A stretch of DNA of 64,000 bases, from assembly GCF_007795095.1 (NCBI RefSeq), contig NZ_CP042218.1, forward strand, positions 1,302,001 through 1,366,000, given 5' to 3'. Origin of the DNA: Luteimonas granuli (GTDB lineage Bacteria; Pseudomonadota; Gammaproteobacteria; Xanthomonadales; Xanthomonadaceae). The translations under genes and the position numbers were made by a program. The notes under the pieces were generated by a model. It ran no database searches. It had not been told where the DNA came from and was given only the letters and a program-made list of their open reading frames with translations. Positions 29,331 through 46,751 of this stretch are shown piece by piece. Every line of letters starts with the position of its first letter. Position 1 is the first letter of the stretch.

Positions 29331-29347
29331 CATAACCCGGGGTTATG
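29331..29347. promoter_or_regulatory. Palindromic T-N11-A operator candidate upstream of dgcN
   Basis: CATAACCCGGGGTTATG is a near-perfect dyad (8-bp arms, one central base) with the T-N11-A shape of LysR-type regulator boxes (TAACCCGGGGTTA). It lies 94 bp before the dgcN ATG. A related 17-mer (13 of 17 identical) occurs upstream of the opposing TonB-receptor operon at 44786-44802. The binding protein is inferred, not shown. Confidence 0.55.
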
Positions 29348-29440
29348 CGCGGGGGGCATCTTTTCAATGGCGGGGTGCGGGCCCAGGACAGAAGATGGAA
29401 TCCCCCCAGCCCATCCGGGCCGCACAGGACGCCCCAGACC

Positions 29441-30484
29441 ATGTCCACCGCTTCCCCCTCCTCCAGCGACCCTTCGCATTGGCCGCCACCCTTCCTGCTG
29501 TACCTGGGCAACGCGGCGGACGACCTCGCCGCCAAGACCGCGCGCGGGCTGGTGCAGTTCCGGCCCGAATGGTGCGTGGGCCAGTTCCGCGGGCCGGACT
29601 GCAGGACCAGCGTGCACATTCCCGACATGGGCTTCGCCGAGGCCCGCGCCGCCGGCGCCAACACCATGATCGTGGGTGTAGCCAACGCCGGCGGGCGCAT
29701 GGGCCCGGACTCGATCGCGGACATCGTCGCCGCGCTGGACGCCGGCATGAACGTCGCTTCGGGCCTGCACGAGCGGCTGGTCTCGCATCCGGCGATCGTC
29801 GAGGCCGCGCAGCGCAACGGCCGACACCTGTTCGACGCCCGCACACCACCGCCCACCCCGGTCGGAAACGGCATCAAGCGCGCCGGACGCCGGCTGCTGA
29901 CCGTCGGCACCGACTGCTCGACCGGAAAGATGTACACCACTCTCGCGATCGAGACCGAGATGCGCGCGCGAGGGCTGGCCGCGGACTTCCGCGCCACCGG
30001 CCAGACCGGCATCTTCGTGGCCGGGCGCGGGATCCCGATCGACGCGGTCGTCGCCGACTTCATTTCCGGTGGCATCGAATGGCTGTCGCCCGACCGCCAT
30101 GACGGCGGCTGGGACCTGATCGAGGGCCAGGGATCGCTGTTCCATCCTTCGTACGCCGGCGTCTCTCTCGGCCTGCTGCATGGCGCCCAGCCCGACGCGC
30201 TGGTGCTCTGCCACGAACCCGGCCGCCCGCACATGCGCGGTCTCCGGCATTACCCGCTGCCGGATCTCGCCGCCACGCTCGAAGCCAACCTCGAGGCCGC
30301 GCGCCTGACCAGTCCCGGGGTGGTCGCGGTCGGCCTGGCGCTCAATACCTCGAAGCTGGACGCCGACGGCGCCGCGCGCGCCTGCCGCGAGGCCGAGGAT
30401 CTGCTCGGCCTGCCGGCGCAGGATCCGATGCGCGACGGCGTGGCGCGCATCGTCGACCGGCTGCTGGACGCCGTGCCGTGCTGA
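29441..30484 (+). CDS. dgcN: DUF1611 protein, D-glutamate N-acetyltransferase DgcN type
   Basis: DUF1611 proteins paired with an enolase-superfamily racemase have been described as DgcN, which N-acetylates D-glutamate in a D-glutamate catabolic route. This 347-aa protein has the family's conserved VGVANAGG (78-85), a P-loop-like GTDCSTGKM (156-164), TGQTGIF and IEGQGSLFHP. No signal peptide is present, so it acts in the cytosol. The ATG at 29441 is weakly supported by ribosome-binding sequence. The next gene, dgcA, overlaps its end by 7 nt, the expected partnership. The acetyl donor cannot be read from sequence. Confidence 0.85.
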   Translation: MSTASPSSSDPSHWPPPFLLYLGNAADDLAAKTARGLVQFRPEWCVGQFRGPDCRTSVHIPDMGFAEARAAGANTMIVGVANAGGRMGPDSIADIVAALDAGMNVASGLHERLVSHPAIVEAAQRNGRHLFDARTPPPTPVGNGIKRAGRRLLTVGTDCSTGKMYTTLAIETEMRARGLAADFRATGQTGIFVAGRGIPIDAVVADFISGGIEWLSPDRHDGGWDLIEGQGSLFHPSYAGVSLGLLHGAQPDALVLCHEPGRPHMRGLRHYPLPDLAATLEANLEAARLTSPGVVAVGLALNTSKLDADGAARACREAEDLLGLPAQDPMRDGVARIVDRLLDAVPC

Positions 30485-31488
30485 GCCTGGCCCACGCCAG
30501 CCATCCGCTGGCCACGCCGTTCCGCATCTCCCGCGGCGTCCGCACCTCGGCCGAGGCGGTAGTGGCGACGATCAGCCGCGGTGGCCTCACCGGCCGCGGC
30601 GAAGCCATGCCCTACCCCCGCTACGGCGAGAGCGTGGGCTCGGTGATCAAGGAGGCTTCGCTGCTTTCGGCGGCGATCGCCGGCGGGCTGGACCGCCGCG
30701 GACTGGGCGAGCTGCTGTCCCCGGGCGCGGCGCGCAACGCGATCGACTGCGCGCTCTGGGACCTGGTGTCGCAGAACATCGGTCTTCCGGTATCCGCGCT
30801 GCTGGGCCATTCCGGCGCGCTGCCGGCGCTGGCCAGTGCGCAGACCGTCAGCCTCGACGCGCCCGAGCGGATGGCCGCGGCGGCGCGCTCGCTCGCCCAC
30901 CTCGACCTGGTGAAGATCAAGGTCGACGCCGTGGACCCGGCGTCGCAGATCCGCGCCGTGCGCGACGTCCTGCCCGATGCGCGCCTCATCGTCGATCCCA
31001 ACGAAAGCTGGACGCTGGACCTGCTGCAGTCGCTGCAGCCGGTACTCGCGGAAGCGCGCATCGACCTGGTCGAGCAGCCGCTGCCGGCCGGCGAGGACGA
31101 CGCACTGCTCGGCTTCACTTCGGTGGCGCGCCTGTGCGCCGACGAGTCATGCCACACCGCCGCCGACCTGCCGCGACTGCGCGGACGCTACCAGGTGGTC
31201 AACATCAAGCTCGACAAGACCGGCGGCCTCACCGGGGCGCTGGAGCTGCTGGACGAGGCGCGCGCGCAGGGCTTCGGGATCATGGTCGGCTGCATGATCA
31301 GTTCCTCGCTGGCCATCGCACCCGCGTGGCACGTCGCGCGCCACGCCGAATTCGTCGACCTCGACGGCCCGCTGTGGCTGAAGGACGACCATGCCGGGGG
31401 CGCGGTCATGCGCGACGGCCTGTTGCAGCCGCCGGCTCCGGAACTGTGGGGCGGTGGCACGCGCGCGAAGGTCGCGCACAGCGCATGA
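30478..31488 (+). CDS. dgcA: Enolase-superfamily racemase, N-acetyl-D-glutamate racemase DgcA type
   Basis: The 336-aa enzyme has the full dipeptide-epimerase-like active site: catalytic lysines in KIKVD (K146/K148), metal ligands D173 (VDPNESW), E199 (VEQPLP) and D222 (CADES), and the opposite-face lysine K244 in NIKLDKTGG. Alone it could be an L-Ala-D/L-Glu epimerase, which acts on murein dipeptide. Next to dgcN it fits DgcA, which converts N-acetyl-D-Glu to N-acetyl-L-Glu. Both roles suit D-glutamate recycling. It begins at a GTG (30478) inside the dgcN stop region and ends with an ATGA overlap to the next gene. Confidence 0.87.
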   Translation: MLSLAHASHPLATPFRISRGVRTSAEAVVATISRGGLTGRGEAMPYPRYGESVGSVIKEASLLSAAIAGGLDRRGLGELLSPGAARNAIDCALWDLVSQNIGLPVSALLGHSGALPALASAQTVSLDAPERMAAAARSLAHLDLVKIKVDAVDPASQIRAVRDVLPDARLIVDPNESWTLDLLQSLQPVLAEARIDLVEQPLPAGEDDALLGFTSVARLCADESCHTAADLPRLRGRYQVVNIKLDKTGGLTGALELLDEARAQGFGIMVGCMISSSLAIAPAWHVARHAEFVDLDGPLWLKDDHAGGAVMRDGLLQPPAPELWGGGTRAKVAHSA

Positions 31489-33104
31489 GGCTCGGGGCAC
31501 TGGCGGCCTGCCTGCCCGGCCTGCTGCTGCTCGCCGGCTGCGCCGGCCCCTTGCCGGAACAGGCGCCGACGGCCGAAGCCGACACGCTGATCCACGATGG
31601 GCTGCTGTTCGACGGTGGCGCGGGCGAGGGCCGGATCGCCGACATCGCGATCCGCGGCGACCGCATCCTCGAGGTCGGCCCCGGTCTTCGGAAGCGCTAT
31701 CGCGCCGCGCGCGAGATCGACGCCGCCGGACTGGTGGTGTCGCCGGGCTTCATCGACCCGCACACGCACCCCGACACCTACCTGCGTTCGCCGGACCCGG
31801 CGATGCGGCGCCTCCTGCCCTGGCTGCACCAGGGCGTGAGCACGATCTTCATCGGCATCGACGGCGGCGGCACGCCCGACATCGCCGCCGAGCGCGCCAC
31901 GCTCGAGGCCGCGGGCACCGGCACCAACGTCGCCGCCCACGTCGGCCTGGGCCCGGTGCGCCGGCGCGTGCTGGGCGATGACGCGCGCGCGCCCGACGCG
32001 GCCGAACTGGCGCGCATGCGCGGCCTGGTCGCGAACGCGATGTGCGAGGGCGCCTTCGGCCTGTCCACGGGCCTGTTCTATACACCGCAAAGTTTCGCTT
32101 CGACCGACGAAGTGGTCGCGCTCGCGCGCGAGGCGGCGATCCGCGGCGGCGTCTACGACACCCACCAGCGCGACGAGTCGAGCTATTCGCTGGGGCTGAT
32201 GGGGTCGATCGAAGAGGTCCTGGAGATCGGCCGGCGCGCCGGGCTTCCGGTGCACATCGGCCACATCAAGGCCCTGGGGGCGGACGTCCACGGCAGTGCC
32301 GGCGCGGTGATCGCGCGCATCGAACGCGCACAGGCCGAAGGGCAGCGCGTGACCGCCGACCAGTACCCCTGGCTGGCGTCCTCCACCGGCCTCGGTGCCG
32401 CACTGCTGCCGGACTGGGCCATGGACGGTGGCCGCCCCGCGCTGTTCGAACGGCTCGACGATCCCGCGACCGCCGCGCGCATCCGCGACGGCATCCGCGA
32501 CAACCTCCAGCGCCGCGGCGGTGCCGACGCGATCCTGATGACCGGCACCGGCTGGCCGTGGAGCGCACGCACGCTGCAGCGCTTCGCCGACGAGGCCGGC
32601 CTCGACCCGGTCGAGGCCGCGTTGCGCATCATCCGCGAGGGCGGCACGGGGCGCATCGGTTCGGCGCAGCGGATCGCGTCGTTCAACATGCACCGCGACG
32701 ACGTCGAGCTGTTCATGCGCCAGCCCTGGGTGCTGACCGCGTCGGACGGCGGCGACGGCCACCCGCGCCAGCACGCCACCTTCCCCGAGAAGTACGCGCG
32801 CTTCGTGGCCGCCGAGGGCGTGATCGACATGGCCGCCTTCATCCACCGGTCCAGCGGCCTGACCGCGACCACCTTCGGCATCCGGGATCGCGGTTTCCTG
32901 CGTGCCGGACAGTTCGCCGACGTCCTGGTGTTCGATCCCGCGGCCTATGCGCCCAGGGCCGACTACGTGCGGCCCGCCGTGCTGTCGGAGGGCGTCGTGC
33001 ACCTGTTCGTCAATGGCGTGCCGATGATCGACGGGGGTCTAGCGGCACATGCCCTTCCCGGCCGGGTGCTGCAGCATCGTCCGCCTCCGGGCACCTGCCC
33101 CTGA
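31485..33104 (+). CDS. D-aminoacylase / N-acyl-D-amino-acid deacylase lipoprotein
   Basis: This 539-aa amidohydrolase-superfamily protein has a lipoprotein signal (LLLLAGC, Cys19), so it is envelope-anchored. Metal-binding residues include H93 and H95 (GFIDPHTHPD), and further ligands occur in THQRDES and HIGHIKALG. The DGGDGHPRQHATFP segment near the C-terminus is typical of D-aminoacylases. The family releases D-amino acids from N-acyl-D-amino acids. The ATG at 31485 overlaps the dgcA stop by 4 nt, so it belongs to the same operon. Periplasmic placement suggests processing of external N-acyl-D-amino acids before import. Confidence 0.87.
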   Translation: MRLGALAACLPGLLLLAGCAGPLPEQAPTAEADTLIHDGLLFDGGAGEGRIADIAIRGDRILEVGPGLRKRYRAAREIDAAGLVVSPGFIDPHTHPDTYLRSPDPAMRRLLPWLHQGVSTIFIGIDGGGTPDIAAERATLEAAGTGTNVAAHVGLGPVRRRVLGDDARAPDAAELARMRGLVANAMCEGAFGLSTGLFYTPQSFASTDEVVALAREAAIRGGVYDTHQRDESSYSLGLMGSIEEVLEIGRRAGLPVHIGHIKALGADVHGSAGAVIARIERAQAEGQRVTADQYPWLASSTGLGAALLPDWAMDGGRPALFERLDDPATAARIRDGIRDNLQRRGGADAILMTGTGWPWSARTLQRFADEAGLDPVEAALRIIREGGTGRIGSAQRIASFNMHRDDVELFMRQPWVLTASDGGDGHPRQHATFPEKYARFVAAEGVIDMAAFIHRSSGLTATTFGIRDRGFLRAGQFADVLVFDPAAYAPRADYVRPAVLSEGVVHLFVNGVPMIDGGLAAHALPGRVLQHRPPPGTCP

Positions 33105-33151
33105 GCGCCACCCGCCGTGTGCGGGCGGCGTGACACCGAGAAGGAACGCCC

Positions 33152-34348
33152 ATGCTGCAACTCGACGCCGTCCAGACCCTCGCCCTCGCGGGCATCGCCC
33201 TGTTCCTGGGGTACGCGCTGTGCCGCGCGATCCCCGTGCTCGAGCGCTACAACCTGCCGCCGCCTGTGATCGGCGGGCTGGTGTTCGCGATCGCGGCCTG
33301 GGTCGCGTACGACCGCGGCACCACGCTCTTCGTGCTCGACACGGGCCTGCAGAGCCCGCTGATGATCGCGTTCTTCACCACCATCGGCGTCAACGCCAGC
33401 CTGCGCCTGCTGAAGATCAGCGGCAAGCAGGTGCTGGTGTTCCTGGCCCTGGCCACGGCCTTCGCGGTCGCGCAGAACCTGCTCGGCATGGCGGTGGCGG
33501 TCGGCTTCGACCTGCATCCGCTGTTCGGCGTGCTGGCCGGGTCCACGACGCTCACCGGTGGACCGGCGACGGGGCTGGCGTTCGCGCCCCTGTTCGAGGC
33601 CGCCGGCGTGGAGGGCGCCGAGTCGATCGCGGTGGCCGCGGCGATGTCGGGCATCGTGCTCGGCGGGCTGATCGGCGGGCCGGTGATCACGGTCCTGATC
33701 CGCCGCTTCGGGCTGGTGTCCTCCCGGCCGCTGGACCACACGGCGCCCGACGGCATCGACACCACGCCCCTGCCCCAGACCGAGGCCCAGCGCGAGTACG
33801 GCGCGCTGAAGAGCATCGTGGTGATCCTGGTGGCCATGTGGCTGGGCAGTTGGGTCAGCGATCTGATCTCGGCCACCGGCATCACCCTGCCCGCCTACGT
33901 CGGCGCGATGCTGGTCGGCGCGGTGATCCGAAACATCGACGACGCCACCGGCTGGATCCGCATGTCGGTGCCGACCACCGACCTGATCGGCAACGTCTGC
34001 CTCGCGCTGTTCCTGTCGGTGGCGCTGATGAACCTCAAGCTGTGGGAACTGGCCGGCCTGGCGCTGCCGCTGCTGGTCAACCTCGGCCTGCAGGTGGCGA
34101 TGGTGGCGGCGTTCTGCCTGGTGGTGTTCCGCGCCATGGGCCGCGACTACGACGCGGCGGTGATGGGCGGCGGCTTCATCGGCTTCATGCTCGGCACCAC
34201 CGCGAACGCGATGGCGGTGATGCGCACCCTGGTCGAGCGCTATGGCGCGGCGCCCCGCGCGTTCCTGGTCGCGCCCCTGGTGGGCGCCTTCTTCATCGAC
34301 TTCACCAACGCGCTGATCATCACCGGCTTCATCAACTTCTGGAGCTGA
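33152..34348 (+). CDS. gltS: Sodium/glutamate symporter
   Basis: The 398-aa protein has about ten helices in two inverted halves, as in GltS. Family signatures are the first-half ERYNLPPPVIGGLVFA and GSTTLTGGPATGLAFAP, and the second-half GGGFIGFMLGTTANAMAVM. GltS imports glutamate with Na+; E. coli GltS also interacts with D-glutamate. It follows the D-aminoacylase gene by 47 bp with GAAGGAACG before the ATG, so it may share the operon. This places glutamate import beside D-glutamate catabolism. It is convergent with alr. Confidence 0.95.
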   Translation: MLQLDAVQTLALAGIALFLGYALCRAIPVLERYNLPPPVIGGLVFAIAAWVAYDRGTTLFVLDTGLQSPLMIAFFTTIGVNASLRLLKISGKQVLVFLALATAFAVAQNLLGMAVAVGFDLHPLFGVLAGSTTLTGGPATGLAFAPLFEAAGVEGAESIAVAAAMSGIVLGGLIGGPVITVLIRRFGLVSSRPLDHTAPDGIDTTPLPQTEAQREYGALKSIVVILVAMWLGSWVSDLISATGITLPAYVGAMLVGAVIRNIDDATGWIRMSVPTTDLIGNVCLALFLSVALMNLKLWELAGLALPLLVNLGLQVAMVAAFCLVVFRAMGRDYDAAVMGGGFIGFMLGTTANAMAVMRTLVERYGAAPRAFLVAPLVGAFFIDFTNALIITGFINFWS

Positions 34349-34386
34349 GCGCGGGCGAGCGCACCCCGGGGGGCGCGCACGCTCAG
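34345..34386. terminator. Hairpin shared by the convergent gltS and alr stops
   Basis: CTGAGCG (34345-34351) and CGCTCAG (34380-34386) form the outer stem of a GC-rich hairpin, and both genes' stop codons lie inside its arms. There is no T-run, so it is at best a weak bidirectional terminator. Confidence 0.4.
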
Positions 34387-35614
34387 GGTCGCCGGAACTT
34401 CGGATTGAGGCTGCCCCAGACGGAGTACTGGTCGGCGAGGATCACTCCGGTGACCGCTTCGATCTCGGCCTGGGTGATCTCGTCCTCCCCCTGCCTGCCG
34501 AACAGCACGACCGCGTCGCCCGGCTCGACGCCGGGGATGGCGGTCACGTCCACCATCGTGGTGTTCATGGTGACGCGGCCCAGCACCGGCGCGCGCTGCC
34601 CGCGCACCAGCACCGATCCCCTGTTCGAGTAGGCGCGCCGATAGCCGTCCGAATAGCCCACGGGCAGGTTGGCGAGCAGCGAATCGCGCTCGAGGGTGAA
34701 GGTGCGGTCGTAGCTCACGGTGCTGCCCGCGGAGTAGGCCTGGACCGAGGCCACGCGCGTCCGGAACGAGGCCACGTGGACGAAGGGCGGCTTGGGCGTG
34801 CCGCCATAGCCGTACAGCGCGCCTCCGGGGCGAACCATGTCCAGATGCGATTCGGGGACGTGCTGGACGGCGAAGGAGTTTGCGGCGTGCAACAGCACGC
34901 GCTCGCGACGCAGCGCGGTGTTGGCGAACAGCCACGCGGCCTCCCGCTTGAATGTCTCCACGCCTTGGCGCAGGTCCGGGGGCTCCTCTCCCGGAAAGTG
35001 CGTCATCAGGCCGACGATCTGGAGGCCTTCGGTCGCCACCATCTCCAAGGCCTCGTGGCGTCCCTGCGCGCTGCCGAGCTCCAGCCCGTTGCGGCTCATG
35101 CCCGCCGAGTTCAGGGCCATGTGGACCCGCGCGGGCCGCCGGCCATGCCTGCGGGCGATCCCGGCGATGGTCCGCGCCGCATCCAGGCCTCCCACCAGTT
35201 CCTCGACGTCATGGGGCAGCGCCCCTTCGACCTCGGCGGACGTGGCCGCGCGCACCCGCATCAGCCGGCCACGGAATCCGCAGGACCGTGCCATCCGCGC
35301 TTCCTCGGTGCTGGCAATGCCGACGTACGGGATGCCGGCCCGGATGATGCTGGGCATCACCAGCTCGATGCCGGCGCCATACGCATCGGCCTTCATCACC
35401 GCGCACGTCCGCGCCCCGCCGGTCGACATGGCCTGGATCAAGCGCAGATTGTGCTCGAAGGCGGCCGGATCGACCTCGATCCAGGCGTTGGCCGCGAGCG
35501 CCCGCCGTCTGTCCTGCGCGCCCAGCAGCGGCGCGGCCCACGCCGGGAGGGGGCGGCAAGGGCCGCCCCCGCGGCCGCCGCGATGAAGCGGCGGCGACCG
35601 GCCTGGAGCGTCAT
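34383..35614 (-). CDS. alr: Tat-exported alanine racemase, with an apparent one-base frameshift
   Basis: This is a PLP-dependent alanine/amino-acid racemase. The intact frame has the cofactor lysine in VMKADAYGAG, the RPGGALYGYG segment, the catalytic tyrosine in TVSYDRTF and NTTMVDVT. The ATG at 35614 begins a twin-arginine signal (GRRRFIAAAAGAALAAP) that runs into another frame at a run of five G at 35549-35553. One more base there continues into LPAWAAPLLGAQDRRRALAA and WIEVDPAAFEHNLRLIQ, the normal racemase N-terminus. The restored protein would be about 410 aa and periplasmic. Its ATG overlaps the receptor stop (ATGA). Biosynthetic Alr is cytosolic, so this is probably a catabolic or broad-spectrum racemase. 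Confidence 0.85.
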
Positions 35615-38511
35615 TCGAACCTGTGCTCGACGATCAGGCCGTACGAACGGCCGCGCGGGTCGCCGATGCGGGCTTCCCACGCCGCCCCGGATGCGAAGTC
35701 GTTCTGGTGGGCCGTGAACGGCGGATCGGTGTTGAGCAGGTTGCGCACGACGAAAGTGATCTTCGTACTTTCCAGGCCGGTCCAGGTCACGCCGTAGTTG
35801 TAGGTGATGTAACGGTCCACGTCGGGGTTCCAGTCCGGCGGCGTCCAGGTGCCCCGCACCATGCTGACCGGCAATTCGTCCTTGTAGCCGTGGCGATAGA
35901 CCTGGGTCAGCGTGTGCGCCCAGTGGCCCTTGACGTAGCCGAAGTTCAAGGTGTGCTTCCATTTCAGCGGCAGATTGAAGAAGCGCACGTACCTGCCCAC
36001 CTCGTTGTCGCCGTAGGGCATCTCCAGCAGCACCCTCTGCTGGAAGTTGTCGATATAGCTCCCGTTGAGGTTGACCTGCCATGCACCTCCGCCCAGTTCA
36101 CCGCGCAGGTTGGCGTCCAGCTCGACGCCGCTCGTCAGGGTGCCGCCCGTATTGGCGAAGGTGCGATCGAGATGATCGAGCGAGCCGTCGGGGTTGCGGA
36201 TCCACCGGTCGGCGAACAGATGGTAGAAATCCCGGAGCATGTTGATGTCGGGCGCGCGGATGGTGTTCAGGCGCTCGATCTCCCACCAGTCGAGGCTGAT
36301 GTTGAAGGTGTCGGTGGGCGCGTAGACCACCCCCAGGCTCCTCTGCTCGGACTCCTCGGGCTGCAGGTTGATGTTGCCGCCGAACACCTGTCCGGGCCGG
36401 TTGATGAACTCGCACCCGGGCACGCTGGAGTTGGGCACGCCGCCGGGGCAGAGGGCCGGGTCGGCGAGATCGAGGCCGGTGTATTCGCCTTCGAGCCTGC
36501 CGCCGTACAGTTTGGTGAACTCCGGCGCCTTGAAGCCGGTGCTGTAGGCTCCCCGGAACGCCAGCGCGTCGAACGGCTGCCACTTGAACGAATACTTCGG
36601 GTTGGTGGTGCCTCCGAAGGTGTCGTAGTCGTCGTGGCGCACGGCCAGGGTCAGCTCCAGGGTCTCGTGCACCGGCGCATAGGCCTCCACGTACAGCGCC
36701 TTGATGTCGCGGCCGACATCGGGCTGGTCGTTGTTGACGTCGAACGGCGCCTGGTAGATGGCCCGGGTGGCGGCTTCGCCTTCCAGCTTGCCGGCGAATC
36801 CGAATTCCTCGCGGCGGAGCTCGATGCCCGTCGCCAGTTGCACCTCGCCGCCCCACAGCGTCCAGCCCAGGCCGCCGGCGAAGGACGCGTCCAGCGTGGT
36901 GACGGTGGATTCACCTCCGTACAGCTTCACGCCGGCCGCCGACGCGGCCCGGAGCAGGTCCATGCCCTGCTCGCTCTGTTGCTCGCCCGGCATGATGAAA
37001 GGATTGATGTGGCCGCTGCCCAGCGCCCGCTGGAATTCGGTCGTGAAGTAGTAGCCGTTGCCCAGGGTGGATTCGCCCCGACTGGAGGCGCGCGACAGGC
37101 CGAGATCGTAGTTCCAGCTGCCGATGTCGCCTTCCATCCCGGCCAGCAGGCGCCAGGCGGTGGTGGTGGTGAGCACCTCGCGCGGGCCGCAGGCCTCGCA
37201 GCGCCAGCGGTAGGGAATGCGGTTGCCGTAGACCAGGTTGCCGACGCTGCTCAGCGCCGCGGAGCCCGGATAGAAGAACCCGCGGATGGCTTCGTACACC
37301 TCGTTGTAGGTGTCGCGGGTGATGTCGTTCAGCGGATACCACGTGCTCGGGTTGAGCGATCCGGTCGTGCCCGAGGTGATCTGCTGGGACTCGAACTGGC
37401 GGTTCGACTTGACCCGCGACTTCATGCCCTCGATATAGAACAGGTGGCCGTCGCCGATCCCGAAGGTGGCGCGGCCCATCGCCTGGACGCTCTCCAGCGG
37501 CTGCTGCATCACCCGTGCGGCCGGGTAGTCCCATGCACAGGCGTATTTGGCGCTGGCCACGCCCCACATCAGGTGTTCATAGGGGCCCATCAGGTCGCCA
37601 CCGGCTTCGCAGCCAGGCCCCCCGGGCAGGTCGAGGGGATTGATGAAGGACTGGTTGCCGCCACCGGCGGGATCGGGCAGGGAGCCGGTGATGATGCCCC
37701 CCGCGGAGTTGGTGACCGTCGCGAACGGCGTGCCGCGCGTATCCGGCGACAGGCCACGGTTCGGCTGGAAGGTGGTGGCGAAATCCCGGTCGGAGCCCGT
37801 CAGGATCTCGTTCTTCTTCCAGTTCAGCGTGCCCCACACGTTCCAGCGATCGGTGCTGATGTCGCCGACGCCGCCGAGGATGTTGGCGTTGTAGATGTCG
37901 CCGCCGCCGTCATGGGTCACGTCGAAGCCCGCATTGACCGTGACGCCCCGATAGTCGCTGCGGGTGATGAAGTTGATCACGCCACCGATGGCGTCGGTGC
38001 CGTACACCGCCGAGGCACCGTCACGCAGCACTTCCACGCGGTCGATCGCGGCGAAGGGGATGGAGTTCAGGTCGACCGCCTGGCCGCGCAGGCCGTGGGT
38101 GGCCACGCGGCGGCCGTTGAGGAGCACGAGCGTCGCGTCGGCGCCCTGGCCGCGAAGGTTGGCACCCGACACGCCGTTGTTGCCACGCATTTCGTCGGAT
38201 CCCACGCCCACCTGGGCGACGAGATTGTCCGAGCCGTTGCCGGAGATGTTCAGGAACTGCAGCAGCTGCTCGGCGGAGGTGATTCCCTGGGCCTCGATCT
38301 CCTGTTTCTGGATGATGGTGATCGGCAATGCCGTTTCCACATCGGTGCGCTTGATGCGCGAACCGGTGACGGTCACCGAGTCCAGTGTCCTGGCGGTGCG
38401 TGCGGGATCAGTGTCTTCCGACTGCGCGGCCGCGGTGCCCGGAACGGCAAGCGCAAGCATGATGGCGGCGGTCGGGGCGTGGCGCCTGGACGAACGACGT
38501 GCGATCGACAT
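35611..38511 (-). CDS. TonB-dependent outer-membrane receptor 1
   Basis: This 966-aa receptor has a signal peptide (cleaved after TAAAQ near 30), a TonB-box-like LDSVTVTGSRIKR, a plug domain with ITSAEQLLQFL, RGQGADATLVLLNGRR and VYGTDAIGGVINFIT, and a large beta-barrel ending in YGLIVEHRFE. This is the large Oar-like type common in xanthomonads, which imports oligomeric or bulky substrates. Its ligand is unknown. It lies 45 bp downstream of the VanX fusion gene and is translationally coupled to alr, so a D-amino-acid peptide is the contextual guess. The ATG at 38511 follows GGAGAGAG. Confidence 0.93.
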   Translation of the reverse strand: MSIARRSSRRHAPTAAIMLALAVPGTAAAQSEDTDPARTARTLDSVTVTGSRIKRTDVETALPITIIQKQEIEAQGITSAEQLLQFLNISGNGSDNLVAQVGVGSDEMRGNNGVSGANLRGQGADATLVLLNGRRVATHGLRGQAVDLNSIPFAAIDRVEVLRDGASAVYGTDAIGGVINFITRSDYRGVTVNAGFDVTHDGGGDIYNANILGGVGDISTDRWNVWGTLNWKKNEILTGSDRDFATTFQPNRGLSPDTRGTPFATVTNSAGGIITGSLPDPAGGGNQSFINPLDLPGGPGCEAGGDLMGPYEHLMWGVASAKYACAWDYPAARVMQQPLESVQAMGRATFGIGDGHLFYIEGMKSRVKSNRQFESQQITSGTTGSLNPSTWYPLNDITRDTYNEVYEAIRGFFYPGSAALSSVGNLVYGNRIPYRWRCEACGPREVLTTTTAWRLLAGMEGDIGSWNYDLGLSRASSRGESTLGNGYYFTTEFQRALGSGHINPFIMPGEQQSEQGMDLLRAASAAGVKLYGGESTVTTLDASFAGGLGWTLWGGEVQLATGIELRREEFGFAGKLEGEAATRAIYQAPFDVNNDQPDVGRDIKALYVEAYAPVHETLELTLAVRHDDYDTFGGTTNPKYSFKWQPFDALAFRGAYSTGFKAPEFTKLYGGRLEGEYTGLDLADPALCPGGVPNSSVPGCEFINRPGQVFGGNINLQPEESEQRSLGVVYAPTDTFNISLDWWEIERLNTIRAPDINMLRDFYHLFADRWIRNPDGSLDHLDRTFANTGGTLTSGVELDANLRGELGGGAWQVNLNGSYIDNFQQRVLLEMPYGDNEVGRYVRFFNLPLKWKHTLNFGYVKGHWAHTLTQVYRHGYKDELPVSMVRGTWTPPDWNPDVDRYITYNYGVTWTGLESTKITFVVRNLLNTDPPFTAHQNDFASGAAWEARIGDPRGRSYGLIVEHRFE

Positions 38512-38554
38512 AGCTCTACTCTCTCCTCATTGGAAGAACGGCTCGACAGGCGGG

Positions 38555-38561
38555 GGTTATG
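38555..38561 (-). promoter_or_regulatory. CATAACC half-site upstream of receptor 1
   Basis: Reading leftward, CATAACC(CCC) repeats one arm of the two full palindromes at 29331 and 44786. It overlaps the TAA stop of the VanX fusion gene and has no second arm, so it may be chance. Confidence 0.2.
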
Positions 38562-40308
38562 GTTTTTCTTGCGTGGCTCCCCTAGTGCGGCGCAGCTCGT
38601 CCCGCAGGAACAGCCCGCCGATCTCCAGCGCGGTCCGGTAGGGCGTGGGATCGTTGCGGTTGCTCAGCAGGACCACGGTCAGGCCGTGCCGCGGCCAGCG
38701 CACATAGGCGTTGCGGAAGCCGATGCTTTCGCCGTTGTGCCACTGCCTGCCGCCGTCTCCGGTCACGCGCCAGCCGAACCCGTAGTACGTCGTTTCCTGC
38801 CCGTCGGGCACCGCGGCCTGCCTGCCGAACGCCATCGCGCGCGTCGCGTCGCTGAACAGGCGGTCGTCGTCCAGCGCAGCGTCCCAGCGGGCGAGGTCGT
38901 CGATGCTGGAGTAGATGCCTCCGTCCCCGAGCACTGCGCTGTACGGGTTCTGGTCGGTCGCGGCCCAGCCCCCGTCGGTCGCGCTGTAGCCCCAGGAACG
39001 GTACGGAATGTCCGGGCCGCCCTCGACCCGGGCGTGGGTGCCGTGCATTCCAAGCGGCACGAAGATGCGGCTGCGCAGGTAGTCGGCGAAGGACATCCCC
39101 GAGGCACGCTCGACGATCAGCGCCAGCAGCGCGTAGCCGCTGTTGCTGTAGCGGTAGGTGCTGCCGGGCTCGAAATGCAGTCGGTCCTGCGTTTCCAGCA
39201 GGGTCAGTACGCCGGCGTCGAGAATCTGGCCCGGCCAGGGCTTCGACATCAGGTCTTCGTAGTCGGGCAGGCCCGAGGTGTGATTCAGCAGGTGGCGCAC
39301 GATGATGCCTTCGGCCGCCGCGGGCAACGAGGGCAGCCACGTGCGCACCGGATCGTCGAGGGAGAGCTTTCCGTCCTGGGCCAGCAGCAGGATCGCGGCC
39401 GCCGTGAACGGCTTGGTGACCGATGCGAGGCGGTAGCTGGTCGCTGCATCCGCCTGCGTGCCGCGCGCCAGGTTCGATCGCCCGTAGCCGCGGCTGACCA
39501 CGGCCCGACCATCCTTCAGCACCAGGAGCGATGCGCCGGGAACGTCGCCGTCGTAAGGCTGCATCAGACGTTCGATCTCCGCCTGCCGGCCCATCGAGGC
39601 GGGAATGGTCACCGGCACGTCGTACAGCGCACCGGCTCCCGGACCCGACCGGTAGGTGTAATGCCACCACTCCATCGGATAGTTGCCGAAGCCCTCGGCG
39701 GCCATCGCTTCGACCAGCAGCTGGCGGTTGGCGCGCTGTGCGTCGCTGGCCTCGGGCGACGCCGTGTTGGCGCGAAGCCCGAAGAAGTCGAAGTCCGTTC
39801 CCATGTCCAGCGGCTCGCAGGCGGCGCCACGCGCGTCGCATCCGAGCAGGGTGAGGTCGACGGTCGTGCCACGGCTGTGGCCGGACACCGGTGCGATGTA
39901 CCCGTCCAGCAGCTGCGACTTGTCCAGGTCCGGGTAATGCCGGGCCCTGGTGCGCTGGTCCGCCGTGTCGTTCACCCAGCGCATGAAGTGCGCCACCGCG
40001 CGCACGGGCCGGTAGCAGTCGAAGATGCGCAGCCGCATGCCGCGCTCACGCAGCGTGGCATCCACCCGCGCCAGCGCCTCGGCCGCATCGCGCTTCAGCC
40101 AGCAGCGTGGCGCCTCGTACCCGTCCACCGGTGCGCCGACGAAGTTGTCGCTGCCGGCGTAGGCGATCGCCTGGGACATGTCCGGCACCAGGCTGCGGAT
40201 GTCGACCATTCCGGCCTGTTCCATCGTGGCCGCGTCCGACACGACGGGCGGATCCGCCGCGAACGCCAACGGAGCCCACGCGAAAAGGGCCAGTGCCATC
40301 CGCTTCAT
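38557..40308 (-). CDS. Periplasmic VanX-type D-Ala-D-Ala dipeptidase fused to a serine beta-lactamase-fold hydrolase
   Basis: This 583-aa exported protein (signal cleaved after AFA, residue 18) has two enzymes. Residues 20-235 are an M15D dipeptidase: CYRP (R100), zinc ligands H144 and D151 in SGHSRGTTVD, catalytic E213 and zinc ligand H216 in EWWHYTY, all as in VanX/DdpX. Residues 240-575 are an S12-type serine hydrolase: SVTK (S296/K299), YSN (387-389) and a WHNG triad near 540. VanX cleaves D-Ala-D-Ala; S12 enzymes include D-specific peptidases and esterases. A fusion of the two is unusual to me. The ATG at 40308 follows GGAGTGGAGG. It is third in a five-gene operon. Confidence 0.88.
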   Translation of the reverse strand: MKRMALALFAWAPLAFAADPPVVSDAATMEQAGMVDIRSLVPDMSQAIAYAGSDNFVGAPVDGYEAPRCWLKRDAAEALARVDATLRERGMRLRIFDCYRPVRAVAHFMRWVNDTADQRTRARHYPDLDKSQLLDGYIAPVSGHSRGTTVDLTLLGCDARGAACEPLDMGTDFDFFGLRANTASPEASDAQRANRQLLVEAMAAEGFGNYPMEWWHYTYRSGPGAGALYDVPVTIPASMGRQAEIERLMQPYDGDVPGASLLVLKDGRAVVSRGYGRSNLARGTQADAATSYRLASVTKPFTAAAILLLAQDGKLSLDDPVRTWLPSLPAAAEGIIVRHLLNHTSGLPDYEDLMSKPWPGQILDAGVLTLLETQDRLHFEPGSTYRYSNSGYALLALIVERASGMSFADYLRSRIFVPLGMHGTHARVEGGPDIPYRSWGYSATDGGWAATDQNPYSAVLGDGGIYSSIDDLARWDAALDDDRLFSDATRAMAFGRQAAVPDGQETTYYGFGWRVTGDGGRQWHNGESIGFRNAYVRWPRHGLTVVLLSNRNDPTPYRTALEIGGLFLRDELRRTRGATQEKP

Positions 40309-40354
40309 GCCTCCACTCCCCCGGTGTGTTGGATCCAGCATGGAACCGGCAAGC

Positions 40355-41524
40355 TCACTCCTCCGGCGGCAGGCTCCCTGCGCCGGTGATGAAGTGCTCA
40401 TGAAGGGCCCCGTTGACCTCGTCCCGCACCCGCATGTCGCGGGTGCCGTTGGTGATCACCACGAAACCATACTTCTTCTCGACGTCGAAGAACATGGAGC
40501 TGTAGAGGCCGTAGGCGGATCCGGTGTGGCCGGTCAGCTCGACGCCGGGCAGCAGCGCACGCTCGGTGCGCAGGCCCAGGCCGTAGGCGGAGGTGGCGTC
40601 GATGGTGACGGTGGGGGACTGCATCGCGCGCGCGTGTTCCGCGCTGATGATCCGCACGCCGTTCCAGGTGCCGTGGTTCATGTGCACCAGCATCCACGTC
40701 GCCAGGTCGGCCGCGGAGATCTTCAGGCCGCCGGTGGGCGAGAAGACGGGCGCGTCCTTGCCGATCACGTGGGTGTCCAGGCGCGGCCCCAGGGGCAGGT
40801 AGGCCTGGTCGGAGCGCACGAAGCCCTGGTCCTCGCGCCAGCGGTAGAGGCGGGCGAACCTGCCTTCGTCGAGCGCGTCCACGAGATGGCCGCCGTACAG
40901 CCCGAGTGGCTCGAGCACATGGCGCCTGACGTAGGCGTCGAAGCGCTCGCCGGACGCCCGCTCCACGATCGCCCCGACCATGTTGTAGCCGAGGTTGGAA
41001 TATTCGTAGCGCTCGCCGGGAGCGCGGTCGGCGTAGCTGTCCCGCCAGGCGCCGCCGGTGCGCGGGTCGATCACGTCCAGGCTGCCGTAGTGCGTCCCGT
41101 CGGTGATTGACGACGTGTGGTTCATGAGCATGCGCAGCGTGATCGGCCGGTCCGGGTATGCGGGGTTGCGCACCGGAAAGCCGATCAGGTCGCCTGCGTC
41201 GTCGTCCAGGGACAGGCGCCCCTGTTCGACCAGTTGCATCACCGCGGTGGCCGCGAACGACTTGGAGATGGAGGCGATCCGGAAGACGTCGTCCTCGTCG
41301 AGCGGAATCTCCCGCTCCAGATCCTTCCAGCCCAGGCTGCTGCGATGGACGACGGCGTTGTCCCTGACCACCACCACCGCAAGGCCGACCGTCCCGTGCT
41401 CGGCCATCAGGGCGCGCAGCCGGTCGTCGATGCCGGGGCTGGCGACGGAGGGCAGCCAGGCGCAGGCCAGCAGGAAGGTCGTGCACAAGGACAGCAGACG
41501 GCCCACGTTCTTCCGTTCCTTCAT
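40355..41524 (-). CDS. Secreted serine hydrolase of the beta-lactamase/DD-peptidase (S12) fold
   Basis: This 389-aa exported protein has a signal peptide ending near SVAS (residue 29). The catalytic set is complete: SISK (S85/K88), YSN (175-177) and GHTG near 340. The family includes class C beta-lactamases, D-alanyl carboxypeptidases and D-amino-acid amidases/esterases. Sequence alone does not decide between them. It lies between receptor 2 (73 bp upstream) and the VanX fusion (46 bp downstream), whose C-terminal half is of the same fold, suggesting related D-peptide substrates. The ATG at 41524 follows GGAGGACGC. Confidence 0.9.
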   Translation of the reverse strand: MKERKNVGRLLSLCTTFLLACAWLPSVASPGIDDRLRALMAEHGTVGLAVVVVRDNAVVHRSSLGWKDLEREIPLDEDDVFRIASISKSFAATAVMQLVEQGRLSLDDDAGDLIGFPVRNPAYPDRPITLRMLMNHTSSITDGTHYGSLDVIDPRTGGAWRDSYADRAPGERYEYSNLGYNMVGAIVERASGERFDAYVRRHVLEPLGLYGGHLVDALDEGRFARLYRWREDQGFVRSDQAYLPLGPRLDTHVIGKDAPVFSPTGGLKISAADLATWMLVHMNHGTWNGVRIISAEHARAMQSPTVTIDATSAYGLGLRTERALLPGVELTGHTGSAYGLYSSMFFDVEKKYGFVVITNGTRDMRVRDEVNGALHEHFITGAGSLPPEE

Positions 41525-41597
41525 GCGTCCTCCGGCAGGTGGTTCGATCGTGTGCGCCGCGGCCGCCGTCGCCATTCCTGGCGACGGCGGCGCTGGC

Positions 41598-44500
41598 TCA
41601 GTCGAAGGACTTGGTCACCGTCAGGTACCAGCCCCGACCGAGCGCGTTGTGCAGCGAAGAGTTGAAGCCCAGCGCGCTCGGGGTCAGCGGCGGCTGGCGG
41701 TCGCCGACGTTGCGGACGGTCAACCGGACCCGCGTCCCGTCGAGGAAGCCGTCGCGTCCGTCGAAGCGGTGCTCGGCCCAGAGGTTCGTCGTGGTCCAGC
41801 TCGGCACCGGATAGTAGTTGCCGAGGTTGGACACCGCTCCGGTGGACTCGAAGCCATCGGTGTAGTTGACGAAGGCGCCCAGCCCCCATGCGCCCTTGCG
41901 CCAGGAGGTGCTGAAGGTCGCGCGCCACTCGGGCTTGCCGTTCACGCCCAGCAGGTTGCCGGCGTTGCGGAGGTCGAAGTTGTCGTCGATCAGCCCCGAC
42001 TCCTGGGCCTCGAAGATGCGCGTCTCGTCGGCGGTGGGATCCTGTGTCATCTGGATCAGGCGCGTGGCGTTGAGGCTGGCGCTGAACGTGCCGGCGGCGT
42101 CGGTGCGCAGGCGCCAGTCGACGCCGAAGTCGATGCCGCGCGTGGTCCGCGGCAGGCGGTTGATATAGAGGTCGTCGACGTAGTCGACCATGCCCACCGG
42201 GTCCAGCCCGGTGCCCTCGAACAGGGCGATCCGCGCCTCGTCCGGGGCCAGGCGGACCACGGCCGGGTTGGACGAGCCCTGCATGCGAAGCAGGTAGTCC
42301 AGGGCCAGGTGGGTGGCCTCGCCCAGGATGCCGATCACGTCCTCCTGCTGGATCTCCCAGTAGTCGGTGGTGAAGGTCATGCGGGTGGATTCGGGCAGGA
42401 AGCGCGGCTGGAACACGAAGCCGGCCGACCAGGTCTCAGCGGTCTCGGGATCCAGGTCGCGGTTGCCGCTGCGGATCGCCATCGTGCTGTAGGTGCGGCC
42501 GCAGCGATGCACGCCGTCGATGGTGCCGTTGCGGATGTCGGCCTCGCACACGTAGTAGTCGGTGCGGCTGTTGCTGACGGTCGTGCCCTCGGCGTACATC
42601 TGCAGGATGTTCGGCGCCAGGAAACTCTGCGACCAGTTGGCGCGGAACATCATGCCGTCGACGATGTCCCAGGCCAGCGACACCTTCGGCTTGGCGACGC
42701 CGCCGAAGTCGGAATAGTGCTCGTAGCGGCCCGCGACCTGCAGGTCCAGCGCGCGCACCAGCGGCACGCCCATCTGCGGCGACACCAGCGGGATCGCGAA
42801 CTCGGCGTACAGCGAACCGACCTCACGGTCGCCCGAGTTGTCCCCCGAGGGGCTGGCACCGAGCACGTCGCTGGTGATCGCGCCGGTCAGCGGGTTGGTA
42901 TAGGTGTAGGTGCCGTCGAAGCGCGGATCGCGGTCGTCGTCCAGGGTCTCGCGGCGCCACTCGCCGCCGAAGGCGACGCCGACGTCGCCGGCCGGCACAC
43001 GGAACAGGTCCTCGCGGATGAAGCGGGTATCGAGCTGGAACAGGGTCGCCCTGCTCTCGCGCACCACCGGCACGGAGAAGTGGTCGATCGCCGCCTGGTT
43101 CTGCCCGGGGTCCTTCGGCGCGCCCCAGTCACCGGGGTTGCCGCCCAGGAAGGGGTTGTAGGCGTCCGGCGTGTTCCAGGACAGCGCCTCGGAGAACAGC
43201 GTGTTGCTGATCGAGCCGTGCTGGGTGTCGGTGGTGGTCGCCGACGAGTACAGCACCGCGCCCTCCCAGTCGAAGCCGCCGACCATGCCGCGAACGCCGG
43301 CGAGGAAGCGGTACTGGTCGTCGTCCACCGTGTAAGGACGCGTGGTGTCGGTGGGACGGTAGCTGGTGAGGCGCACGTCCAGGCCTTCCACCGGCGCGTT
43401 GATGCCCGCCAGTCGATACGGGTTGAGCGAGCCGTCGGCCCGGTACATCGCGCCGAAGGGGTTGTAGTAGTTGTTCTTCGACACCAGGATCGGCGCCGCG
43501 CCCAGCGGTGCGGCCTGCTCGCGCATGCCTTCGTAGCGCGCCTTGTACCAGGCCAGCTCGCCGAAGGCGACGAAGTTGTCGTCGAGGTCGTGTTCGATCG
43601 TGCCGAACGCGTTCATGCGGTCGAGCTCGCCGAGGATCTGGCGCTGGTGGTTCGGGCTGAAGCGCAGCGGCCGGTCGATGGTGGTGTTCTGCGCGCCGGT
43701 GTTGATGCAGACGTTGCCGTCCAGCGCCGCGGTGCAGCCGTGGTGGCCGACCGGGTCGATGTGGAACTGCCCGCTGCCGTTGGTGATCAGCGCGTTGCCG
43801 GGGCCGCGCACGGCCACGTTGCCGACGGTCTGGAACACGCCCCAGGCGCTGCCGGTGATGCGGTCGTCGAAGGCGGCCACGCCCTCGAACTCGGTGCCGT
43901 CCATCAGCGCGCGGCGGTCCATGTTGGCGCTGTAGTCGCGTTCGGTCGCCGGCAGGTCGGTGCGGTGCGTCCAGCCGCCCACCAGCGTCGCGCGGGTGCG
44001 GCCGTCGTTGAACCACTTGCCGGCCTTGAAGTTGATGTTGCCCTGGCGCAGTTCGACGTCCTCGGAGCCGCCGTACTGGGTCTGGACCTGGAAGCCCTGG
44101 TAATGCGTGTCCAGCACCACGTTGACCACGCCGGCGACGGCGTCCGAGCCGTACAGCGCCGAGGCGCCGCCCAGCAGGGTCTCGATGCGGCGCGTGCCGA
44201 ACAGCGGGATCGCGTTCATGTTCGCGGTCTGGCGCGGCACGAGCGATTCGGTCTGCGTGCCCGGGTGCGGCACCATGCGGCGCCCGTTCACCATCAGCAG
44301 CGTGTTGCCGGTGCCCAGGTTGCGCAGGTTGATCGAGCCGACGTCGCCGCGCGCCGCGTTGAGGTTGGCCGCGGTGTCGCTGTTGTTGAACATCATGTCG
44401 CCGACCTGCGGCATCGCCTGCAGCAGTTCGTCGCCGGAGATGGCGCCGGTGGCCTCGATCTTCTCCTCGTCCATCACCACCACCGGCGACGGACCCTCGG

Positions 44501-44681
44501 CGCGCGTGCTCGCGAGCCGGCTGCCCACCACAACGACGGTGTCGAGTTCCTTCGCCCTGGCCTCGGCCTCGGTCTGTGGCTGCGCCGGCTCGGCGCTTGG
44601 CTGCTGCGCGAATGCCATGCTCTGCAGCGTCGATGCGAGGATGACGCTGAGCAGCGTCGGTCTGGTCAGGCGATGGTGCAT
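41598..44681 (-). CDS. TonB-dependent outer-membrane receptor 2
   Basis: This 1027-aa receptor has a signal peptide (cleaved after AFAQ near 25), ELDTVVVVGSRLA as a TonB-box region, a plug with GDELLQAMPQVGDMMF, NLGTGNTLLMVNGRRMVP and LYGSDAVAGVVNVVL, and a long barrel ending in YLTVTKSFD. It is the first gene of the five-gene minus-strand operon. The ATG at 44681 has a strong GGAGGAAG box. A T-N11-A palindrome about 105 bp upstream resembles the one before dgcN. The ligand is unknown; the operon's hydrolases point to D-amino-acid-containing peptides. Confidence 0.93.
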   Translation of the reverse strand: MHHRLTRPTLLSVILASTLQSMAFAQQPSAEPAQPQTEAEARAKELDTVVVVGSRLASTRAEGPSPVVVMDEEKIEATGAISGDELLQAMPQVGDMMFNNSDTAANLNAARGDVGSINLRNLGTGNTLLMVNGRRMVPHPGTQTESLVPRQTANMNAIPLFGTRRIETLLGGASALYGSDAVAGVVNVVLDTHYQGFQVQTQYGGSEDVELRQGNINFKAGKWFNDGRTRATLVGGWTHRTDLPATERDYSANMDRRALMDGTEFEGVAAFDDRITGSAWGVFQTVGNVAVRGPGNALITNGSGQFHIDPVGHHGCTAALDGNVCINTGAQNTTIDRPLRFSPNHQRQILGELDRMNAFGTIEHDLDDNFVAFGELAWYKARYEGMREQAAPLGAAPILVSKNNYYNPFGAMYRADGSLNPYRLAGINAPVEGLDVRLTSYRPTDTTRPYTVDDDQYRFLAGVRGMVGGFDWEGAVLYSSATTTDTQHGSISNTLFSEALSWNTPDAYNPFLGGNPGDWGAPKDPGQNQAAIDHFSVPVVRESRATLFQLDTRFIREDLFRVPAGDVGVAFGGEWRRETLDDDRDPRFDGTYTYTNPLTGAITSDVLGASPSGDNSGDREVGSLYAEFAIPLVSPQMGVPLVRALDLQVAGRYEHYSDFGGVAKPKVSLAWDIVDGMMFRANWSQSFLAPNILQMYAEGTTVSNSRTDYYVCEADIRNGTIDGVHRCGRTYSTMAIRSGNRDLDPETAETWSAGFVFQPRFLPESTRMTFTTDYWEIQQEDVIGILGEATHLALDYLLRMQGSSNPAVVRLAPDEARIALFEGTGLDPVGMVDYVDDLYINRLPRTTRGIDFGVDWRLRTDAAGTFSASLNATRLIQMTQDPTADETRIFEAQESGLIDDNFDLRNAGNLLGVNGKPEWRATFSTSWRKGAWGLGAFVNYTDGFESTGAVSNLGNYYPVPSWTTTNLWAEHRFDGRDGFLDGTRVRLTVRNVGDRQPPLTPSALGFNSSLHNALGRGWYLTVTKSFD

Positions 44682-44785
44682 GTGGTCACTTCCTCCGAAG
44701 ACACGGATCGGCGCGGTATCGCGCCCCCCTGCCCGGACTGTAGCGACCTTGCACCTTCGCGAAGCCTCGCTTTTTGAGCCCATCC

Positions 44786-44802
44786 CATAGCGGCAGGTTA
44801 TG
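44786..44802. promoter_or_regulatory. Palindromic T-N11-A operator candidate upstream of receptor 2
   Basis: Read leftward the site is CATAACCTGCCGCTATG, sharing 13 of 17 positions with 29331-29347 and keeping CATA...TATG ends with T-N11-A. It precedes the operon that starts at 44681 and lies just beyond the ggt1 stop. A shared LysR-type regulator is inferred. Confidence 0.5.
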
Positions 44803-46547: not shown

Positions 46548-46751
46548 GGTTCCGGATCTCCAGTTTCCATCCCGACACTGCCCCAGACGGCCCCTGCTGT
46601 CGTGCAGCATTCCTGCAGGGAGGTATGCAGCGGGGCTATGGAGCATGGCGGCAAAGCGAGGGGCATGCGGCCCACGATCGCGATAGCCTCGCGGCCACCG
46701 CTACCGGCCGGCGGCCCACGTGGCGCCGGCCTTCCGCAGAGGAGCCCGCCC

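Follow-up and report, generated by a model that had tools for sequence, protein, structure and literature searches.

In a 64,000-nucleotide stretch of the Luteimonas granuli genome (contig NZ_CP042218.1, positions 1,302,001 to 1,366,000; hereafter the window), two palindromes stand upstream of two facing operons and very probably constitute the recognition sites of a regulator of the LysR type whose gene lies at 48546-49451; this protein, related to DgcR and DguR, would switch both operons on together. Operon 1, on the plus strand, comprises dgcN, dgcA, an amidohydrolase-family gene labelled 'deacylase' here, and gltS. Operon 2, on the minus strand, comprises the genes for TonB-dependent receptor 2, a beta-lactamase-family hydrolase, a fusion of an M15 dipeptidase and a beta-lactamase-family domain, TonB-dependent receptor 1 (tonB1) and an alanine-racemase-family protein. 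Beside both operons lie the divergent gamma-glutamyltranspeptidase (GGT) genes ggt1 and ggt2, with lysR following ggt2. A first-pass annotation of the window had proposed that the facing operons form one regulon, with the LysR gene at 48546 as candidate, and this proposal is now supported by site counts across the genus, by 12 of 12 dgcN orthologs and by the co-occurrence of LysR and site in many, although not all, Gamma- and Alphaproteobacteria. What is new is the operator and the way it is linked to genes for TonB receptors and GGTs; neither these nor the persistence of the operator over an exchange of enzymes is described in the literature searched, which covered few subscription journals.

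Occurrence of the palindromes in Luteimonas

The palindromes lie where the first-pass annotation had placed them, at 29331-29347 and 44802-44786, and CATAACCCGGGGTTATG and CATAACCTGCCGCTATG are indeed identical at 13 of 17 positions. The LysR-box shape claimed for them was confirmed in site 1, where T-N11-A is set within an interrupted palindrome, the form of a LysR-type operator. The distances to the start codons are similar, as had been claimed, with 93 bp between site 1 and the dgcN ATG (29441) and 104 bp between site 2 and the receptor 2 ATG (44681). Note that the final three bases of operator 1, from 29345, read ATG in the dgcN frame, so that a mechanical list of open reading frames (ORFs) begins dgcN within the operator. 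The palindromy of site 1 alone is ordinary, because each of 30 second-order Markov copies of the window holds one to seven perfect 8+1+8 palindromes; the window itself has eight, site 1 among them. Its rare feature is the possession of A/T-rich arms within 71% GC sequence.

Motif scans of the window and of the genome, both suggested at the outset, were carried out. Within the window, CATAACCNNNNNNTATG gave seven matches with at most two mismatches, and shuffled sequences gave a mean of 2.19 and a maximum of 7. Across the genome (2.92 Mb, one contig), CATAACCNNNGGTTATG (CATAACC-N3-GGTTATG) was found with at most two mismatches at three places, including both sites, and its reversed control at none. 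The pattern CATARCC-N3-GGYTATG occurs once exactly and twice with one mismatch; two of these three places are sites 1 and 2 and the third (298959) falls within an ORF for an RND membrane-fusion protein. For CATARCCNNNGGYTATG, the expectation in this genome under independent and identically distributed bases is 0.014 exact occurrences and 0.67 with at most one mismatch. By count alone, the 16 two-mismatch places not having been examined one by one nor compared between genomes, no further members of the regulon emerged at the level of two mismatches, where 19 places compare with about 15 expected under the same model and 6 in the reversed control; for the relatives G013 and G034 (G numbers denote genomes, L numbers loci) the corresponding figures against the reversed control are 25 vs 14 and 13 vs 17. 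A weak site before tonB1 (38545-38561; 11 of 14 positions) was left uncounted as a member because it lies 33 bp from the tonB1 start and tonB1 was not found there in the four nearest genomes (G003, G013, G018 and G034).

The genus set consisted of 37 genomes including our own, of which 15 have an ortholog of the LysR protein (60-94% identity in the 14 others) and 22 do not. All 15 LysR-bearing genomes possess the site before operon 1, whether this begins with dgcN or with the deacylase-gltS pair; the match is exact in 12 and has one mismatch in G008, G011 and G024. It is the deacylase-gltS pair that follows the site in G027, G029 and G033, in which dgcN was not found. Equally good matches are not scattered at random, as evidenced by 40 sites with at most one mismatch in the LysR-bearing genomes against 5 in the reversed control, compared with 14 against 14 in the genomes without LysR (none exact; an average of 0.64 per genome, against the 0.67 expected at random in our own). 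With kinship ignored, the site counts of the two groups differ at p 1.6e-6 (Mann-Whitney), and the exact sites, 12/15 vs 0/22, at 2.5e-7 (Fisher). By manual reading, 27 of the 40 sites fall in this locus outside mapped genes.

Conservation of the promoters in relatives, another check that had been proposed, was also found; neither of the two outcomes named in advance as refuting the regulon, random scatter of equally good matches or unconserved sites in orthologous promoters, came about. The dgcN test took 30 of the 47 listed dgcN matches, one locus each from 30 of 31 genomes, leaving out second copies and the split ortholog of G011. Every one of the 12 orthologs (at least 65% identity, our own and G056 included) has a site with 13 or 14 of 14 positions, 69-220 bp upstream, vs none of the 18 more distant copies (46-53% identity), where at most 11 of 14 positions agree. 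The ortholog of G011 (L103 5819-6836) is split into three matched pieces; its operator is retained. Site 2 is identical at all 17 positions in the four nearest genomes although the flanks of the interval differ.

Sites also accompany receptor and GGT genes in other members of the genus. G010 has a two-mismatch site before the receptor gene, and its ggt1 is preceded by two more such sites, 24 bp apart; G027, G029 and G033 have pairs 23 bp apart before ggt1, with one or two mismatches in each site; and in G028 a pair 24 bp apart precedes a receptor gene only 27% like receptor 2. In the ggt1/ggt2 interval of G013 there is an extra 24-bp block with a two-mismatch palindrome, absent from the other four genomes aligned. 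Neither receptor 2 nor ggt was mapped in the stretch taken from G032 and G036, and the operon 1 site stands alone there. In G036 and G056 lysR is divergent from dgcN, with the site between them. As a separate observation, G039 (L108 6126-7135) has a distant lysR (39%) with three one-mismatch sites around it; two of the three precede a divergent TonB receptor gene and are spaced 32 bp apart.

Promoter geometry and the proposed switch

LysR-type regulators commonly use a recognition site near -65 and an activation site near -35 to -40. Our -10 analysis covered 15 operon 1 promoters (with G056, without G011), 6 receptor promoters and 22 hand-picked distant promoters, offsets being counted in bases after the palindrome. 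Among the operon 1 promoters the best -10-like hexamer stands at offset 44-49 (mean score 3.97, first of 95 offsets); by manual reading it begins exactly at 44 in 12 of the 15 (GAAGAT, TATGGT, TAAGGT and similar) and is one base off in 3. The same offset came first of 95 in the receptor promoters, where the hexamer is TACAGT, TAGAGT or TACCGT and the score of 5.42 is followed by 3.83. With this common offset, and a start about 7 bases further, the palindrome centre would be at about -64 in both operons, near the LysR recognition position. Candidates for a second site are TTTTCAATGG, found letter for letter at bases 14-23 (about -42 to -33) in 8 of 15 genus operon 1 promoters and as variants in 7, and tandem palindromes 23-24 bp apart in G010, G027, G028, G029 and G033. 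Operon 2 carries a different conserved stretch.

What the sequences show directly is the sites, how they are spaced, that they are conserved and that they go with the lysR gene; the binding, activation, inducer and substrate that we infer from them would combine as follows. A regulator dimer would occupy each palindrome at about -65; with the inducer, most likely D-glutamate, a second dimer would engage the weaker element near -40, and RNA polymerase would be brought to the -10 found at offset 44-49. Activation would reach both operons at once, perhaps with the ggt1/ggt2-lysR interval as well, so that bound D-glutamate would be imported and released in step with GltS uptake and with conversion by DgcN and DgcA. 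An alternative that keeps the regulator and its sites has a gamma-glutamyl or muropeptide fragment, or N-acetyl-D-glutamate, in place of free D-glutamate as the inducer. Two GGTs, the M15 dipeptidase domain, the beta-lactamase-family hydrolases and the amidohydrolase could all handle bound D-glutamate, and we give this version a real though minor share of the probability; it is opposed by the presence of the same LysR family beside dgcN or D-amino acid dehydrogenase genes in other bacteria, and by DguR, described in a passage of PMC10926688 as a regulator in D-Glu catabolism.

The regulator family and competing explanations

When named genomes were scanned with the LysR alignment, at least 555 loci came up, and the best 80, down to 32% identity and with non-independent close relatives among them, were taken. 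They cover Gamma- and Alphaproteobacteria (Luteimonas, Stenotrophomonas, Sphingomonas, Sphingopyxis, Novosphingobium, Caulobacter, Pseudoalteromonas, Colwellia, Woeseiaceae, Pseudomonas and others) and contain 52 sites with at most one mismatch, 10 of them exact, in 44 loci. Permuted palindromes of the same letters (n=419) gave a mean of 0.76 sites; none reached 52, and the two highest (31 and 29) deviate from the real arm only by the position of R. After removal of 15 Pseudomonas loci 41 sites remained (permuted mean 0.57, maximum 20), 25 of which are found no more than 300 bp upstream of a dgcN, receptor, lysR, ggt, deacylase or maeB gene. Thirteen of the other 16 were inspected, and five of these (L122, L126, L132, L143, L160) precede a D-amino acid dehydrogenase-like gene that matches NF001933 over its full length, below the curated cut-off; the site of L127 precedes an ORF of similar look. 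In three Colwellia-type loci the site is located between lysR and dgcN. A further observation concerns L164 (10904), from a Lysobacterales metagenome-assembled genome, in which an exact site lies after lysR and before a gene for a diaminopimelate-decarboxylase-like, pyridoxal-phosphate (PLP) enzyme, not a known D-glutamate enzyme.

Could the palindromes be operators of another transcription factor that merely co-occurs with the locus? In G024 (L102 16598-17625) the receptor-side site has a TonB receptor ORF on one side and on the other a second lysR gene distinct from the first, as such a reading would have it. However, the pattern follows this LysR family across genomes that share little else, and the site falls in the interval adjoining lysR in Colwellia, Sphingopyxis, Woeseiaceae and Pseudomonas loci; we consider a different factor quite improbable. 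About as improbable, or slightly more so, is the proposal that site 1 acts chiefly on maeB, a gene divergent from dgcN whose start is 63 bp away from the site. This gene is the divergent neighbour in our own genome and in G003, G013, G018, G027, G029, G032, G033 and L116, yet the site stays before dgcN in G036, G010, G028, G008 and G024, where no maeB was mapped beside it; the neighbour has switched to lysR in G036 and to rsgA in G010. Since the site remains with dgcN where maeB is not the neighbour, control of maeB was rejected as its main role, and the -10-like hexamer at constant offset likewise lies on the dgcN side; an additional effect of site 1 on maeB may nonetheless exist. A chance likeness between two short palindromes, both A/T-rich in a genome of 71% GC, for which one might cite the 3 of 30 Markov copies of the window that hold at least one match of 13/17 to site 1, can be dismissed in view of the genus counts and their p values, the sites conserved in the orthologous dgcN promoters together with LysR, and the permutation test on the 80 loci.

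Several results weigh against recognition of these sites by the LysR regulator. No site with at most one mismatch was found in 36 of the 80 LysR loci (best 80 of at least 555), and these 36, in which the operator has drifted or is absent, include 12 of the 27 loci that have dgcN within 3.5 kb of lysR. Twenty-four genomes of the same order but other families gave 63 sites against 58 in the reversed control, which is background. Site 2 departs by one mismatch from CATARCC-N3-GGYTATG and is unchanged only in four close genomes, and the best match in the lysR and ggt promoters of our own genome has 9 of 14 positions. As to the promoter geometry, the -10 score was picked after the alignment had been inspected; offset 16, inside TTTTCAATGG, is close behind in operon 1 (3.87 vs 3.97), and among the distant promoters offset 44 ranks third.

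The regulator family is linked to genes of D-glutamate catabolism, either dgcN-dgcA or D-amino acid dehydrogenase genes. Beside lysR in G027, G029 and G033 there is a D-amino acid dehydrogenase-like gene, 43-46% identical to that of Sphingopyxis. A D-amino acid dehydrogenase gene is near lysR in all 15 Pseudomonas loci, divergent in the two that were mapped (L169 and L188), and 11 of the 15 have CATAAACAAAGGTTATG, starting 25-27 bp before the lysR match. The enzyme partner changes at least five times in a quick tree of 97 LysR rows that has long branches and open forks. We are marginally inclined to think that an old LysR that senses D-glutamate has persisted, along with its operator CATARCC-N3-GGYTATG, in lineages of Xanthomonadales, Sphingomonadales, Caulobacterales, Alteromonadales and Pseudomonas, with the catabolic enzymes (DgcN-DgcA or D-amino acid dehydrogenase) swapped several times, and that in Luteimonas the switch would run a complete gamma-D-glutamyl scavenging route consisting of the outer-membrane receptor, the GGTs and D-peptidases, GltS and DgcN-DgcA.

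Gene content and relation to known systems

Table 1. Coordinates of the presumed regulatory elements and of the genes of the locus in the window.
Feature	Position	Strand	Remarks
Operator 1, presumed LysR recognition site	29331..29347	.	CATAACCCGGGGTTATG, T-N11-A, perfect palindrome
Conserved element, presumed activation site near -40	29361..29370	+	TTTTCAATGG; operon 1 promoters
-10-like hexamer GAAGAT, operon 1	29391..29396	+	bases 44-49 after palindrome
dgcN, N-acetyltransferase DgcN family	29441..30484	+	NF041892 509 bits, cut-off 480
dgcA, N-acetyl-D-Glu racemase family	30478..31488	+	NF042940 421 bits, cut-off 400
'Deacylase', amidohydrolase-family protein, lipoprotein-like N-terminus	31485..33104	+	PF07969; best NCBIfam match below cut-off
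gltS, sodium/glutamate symporter	33152..34348	+	TIGR00210 340 bits, cut-off 311
Alanine-racemase-family protein	34383..35441	-	no match at same place in G003, G013, G018, G034
TonB-dependent receptor 1 (tonB1)	35611..38511	-	no match at same place in G003, G013, G018, G034
M15 D-Ala-D-Ala dipeptidase domain fused to beta-lactamase-family domain	about 38557..40308	-	
Beta-lactamase-family hydrolase	40355..41575	-	
TonB-dependent receptor 2	41598..44681	-	first gene of operon 2
-10-like hexamer TACAGT, operon 2	44737..44742	-	offset 44-49, as operon 1
Operator 2, presumed LysR recognition site	44786..44802		minus-strand reading CATAACCTGCCGCTATG; same sequence in G003, G013, G018, G034
ggt1, gamma-glutamyltranspeptidase	44820..46547	-	PF01019 530 bits
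Degenerate third site between ggt1 and ggt2	46624..46640	.	9/14 positions; recognisable in all five near genomes aligned
ggt2, second gamma-glutamyltranspeptidase	46665..48482	+	PF01019 428 bits; start codon uncertain
LysR-type regulator, candidate site-binding DgcR/DguR-family protein	48546..49451	+	

The regulator carries HTH_1 and LysR_substrate domains, and the dgcN product exceeds the cut-off of its NCBIfam equivalog. Several hydrolases start with export or lipoprotein-like signals, as judged by eye. Read together, the genes of the locus appear to form a route for peptide-bound D-glutamate, comprising import, release, uptake by GltS and conversion to L-glutamate. Uptake of D-glutamate by the GltS of Vibrio fischeri, better in mutant forms, is discussed in passages of PMC12502697, and parts of PMC12363236 present dgcN as a key gene of an irreversible racemization pathway.

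Other features of the gene order deserve a record. The tonB1 and alanine-racemase-family genes (34383-38511), which have gltS on one side and the vanX-like gene on the other, appear to be an insertion specific to the lineage. The counterparts of the M15/beta-lactamase fusion in G003, G013 and G018 match just its first 236-299 residues. Near lysR there is an M14 carboxypeptidase-family gene (50662-51981), for which the best site in the 300 bp upstream has 9 of 14 positions; in loci of Colwellia, Pseudoalteromonas and Woeseiaceae its counterparts adjoin receptor and deacylase genes.

What had been a hunch is now a specific operator that can be tested cheaply and that may serve as a genome-wide marker of D-glutamate scavenging. 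Found before dgcN, D-amino acid dehydrogenase, TonB receptor, GGT or deacylase genes, the site could reveal D-glutamate regulons with unrelated enzymes. Outer-membrane receptors of unknown cargo would also be tied by it to material that contains D-glutamate, with a bearing on the recycling of peptidoglycan or other gamma-glutamyl polymers.

The LysR protein at 48546 resembles the D-glutamate regulators DgcR and DguR, and the system is most likely of this known kind. DgcR, in work attributed to Yu et al. in the ISME J of 2023, is said to regulate dgcN-dgcA with induction by D-Glu. In common with our locus, it has a LysR-family gene beside dgcN and dgcA, and the Pseudoalteromonas phenolica relative (37% identity) carries one-mismatch sites ahead of both dgcN and a TonB receptor gene. 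In contrast, about 18 kb separate lysR from dgcN in Luteimonas, receptor genes have sites before them as well, and the operons contain or adjoin gltS and GGT genes. DguR and dguRABC of Pseudomonas were reportedly described by He et al. in 2014. DguR too is a LysR-type regulator of D-Glu catabolism, and 15 Pseudomonas relatives are 34-38% identical to the LysR of the window; judging by gene order, these loci may be dguR itself. The difference lies in the enzymes, Pseudomonas using a dehydrogenase and Luteimonas DgcN-DgcA. Pseudoalteromonas and Pseudomonas relatives share one tree with the window LysR, a quick tree with no outgroup and without the characterised DgcR and DguR sequences.

A more distant likeness is to the BenM/CatM-type promoters, which contain ATAC-N7-GTAT and have a recognition site near -65 and a second site nearer the promoter. 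The dyad frame is the same, ATAR-N7-YTAT here, and BenM is among the nearest solved structures; the middle bases and the pathway are different, so that the likeness holds at the level of the LysR superfamily only. The scavenging route proposed for Luteimonas, for its part, would be comparable in its logic to a polysaccharide utilisation locus.

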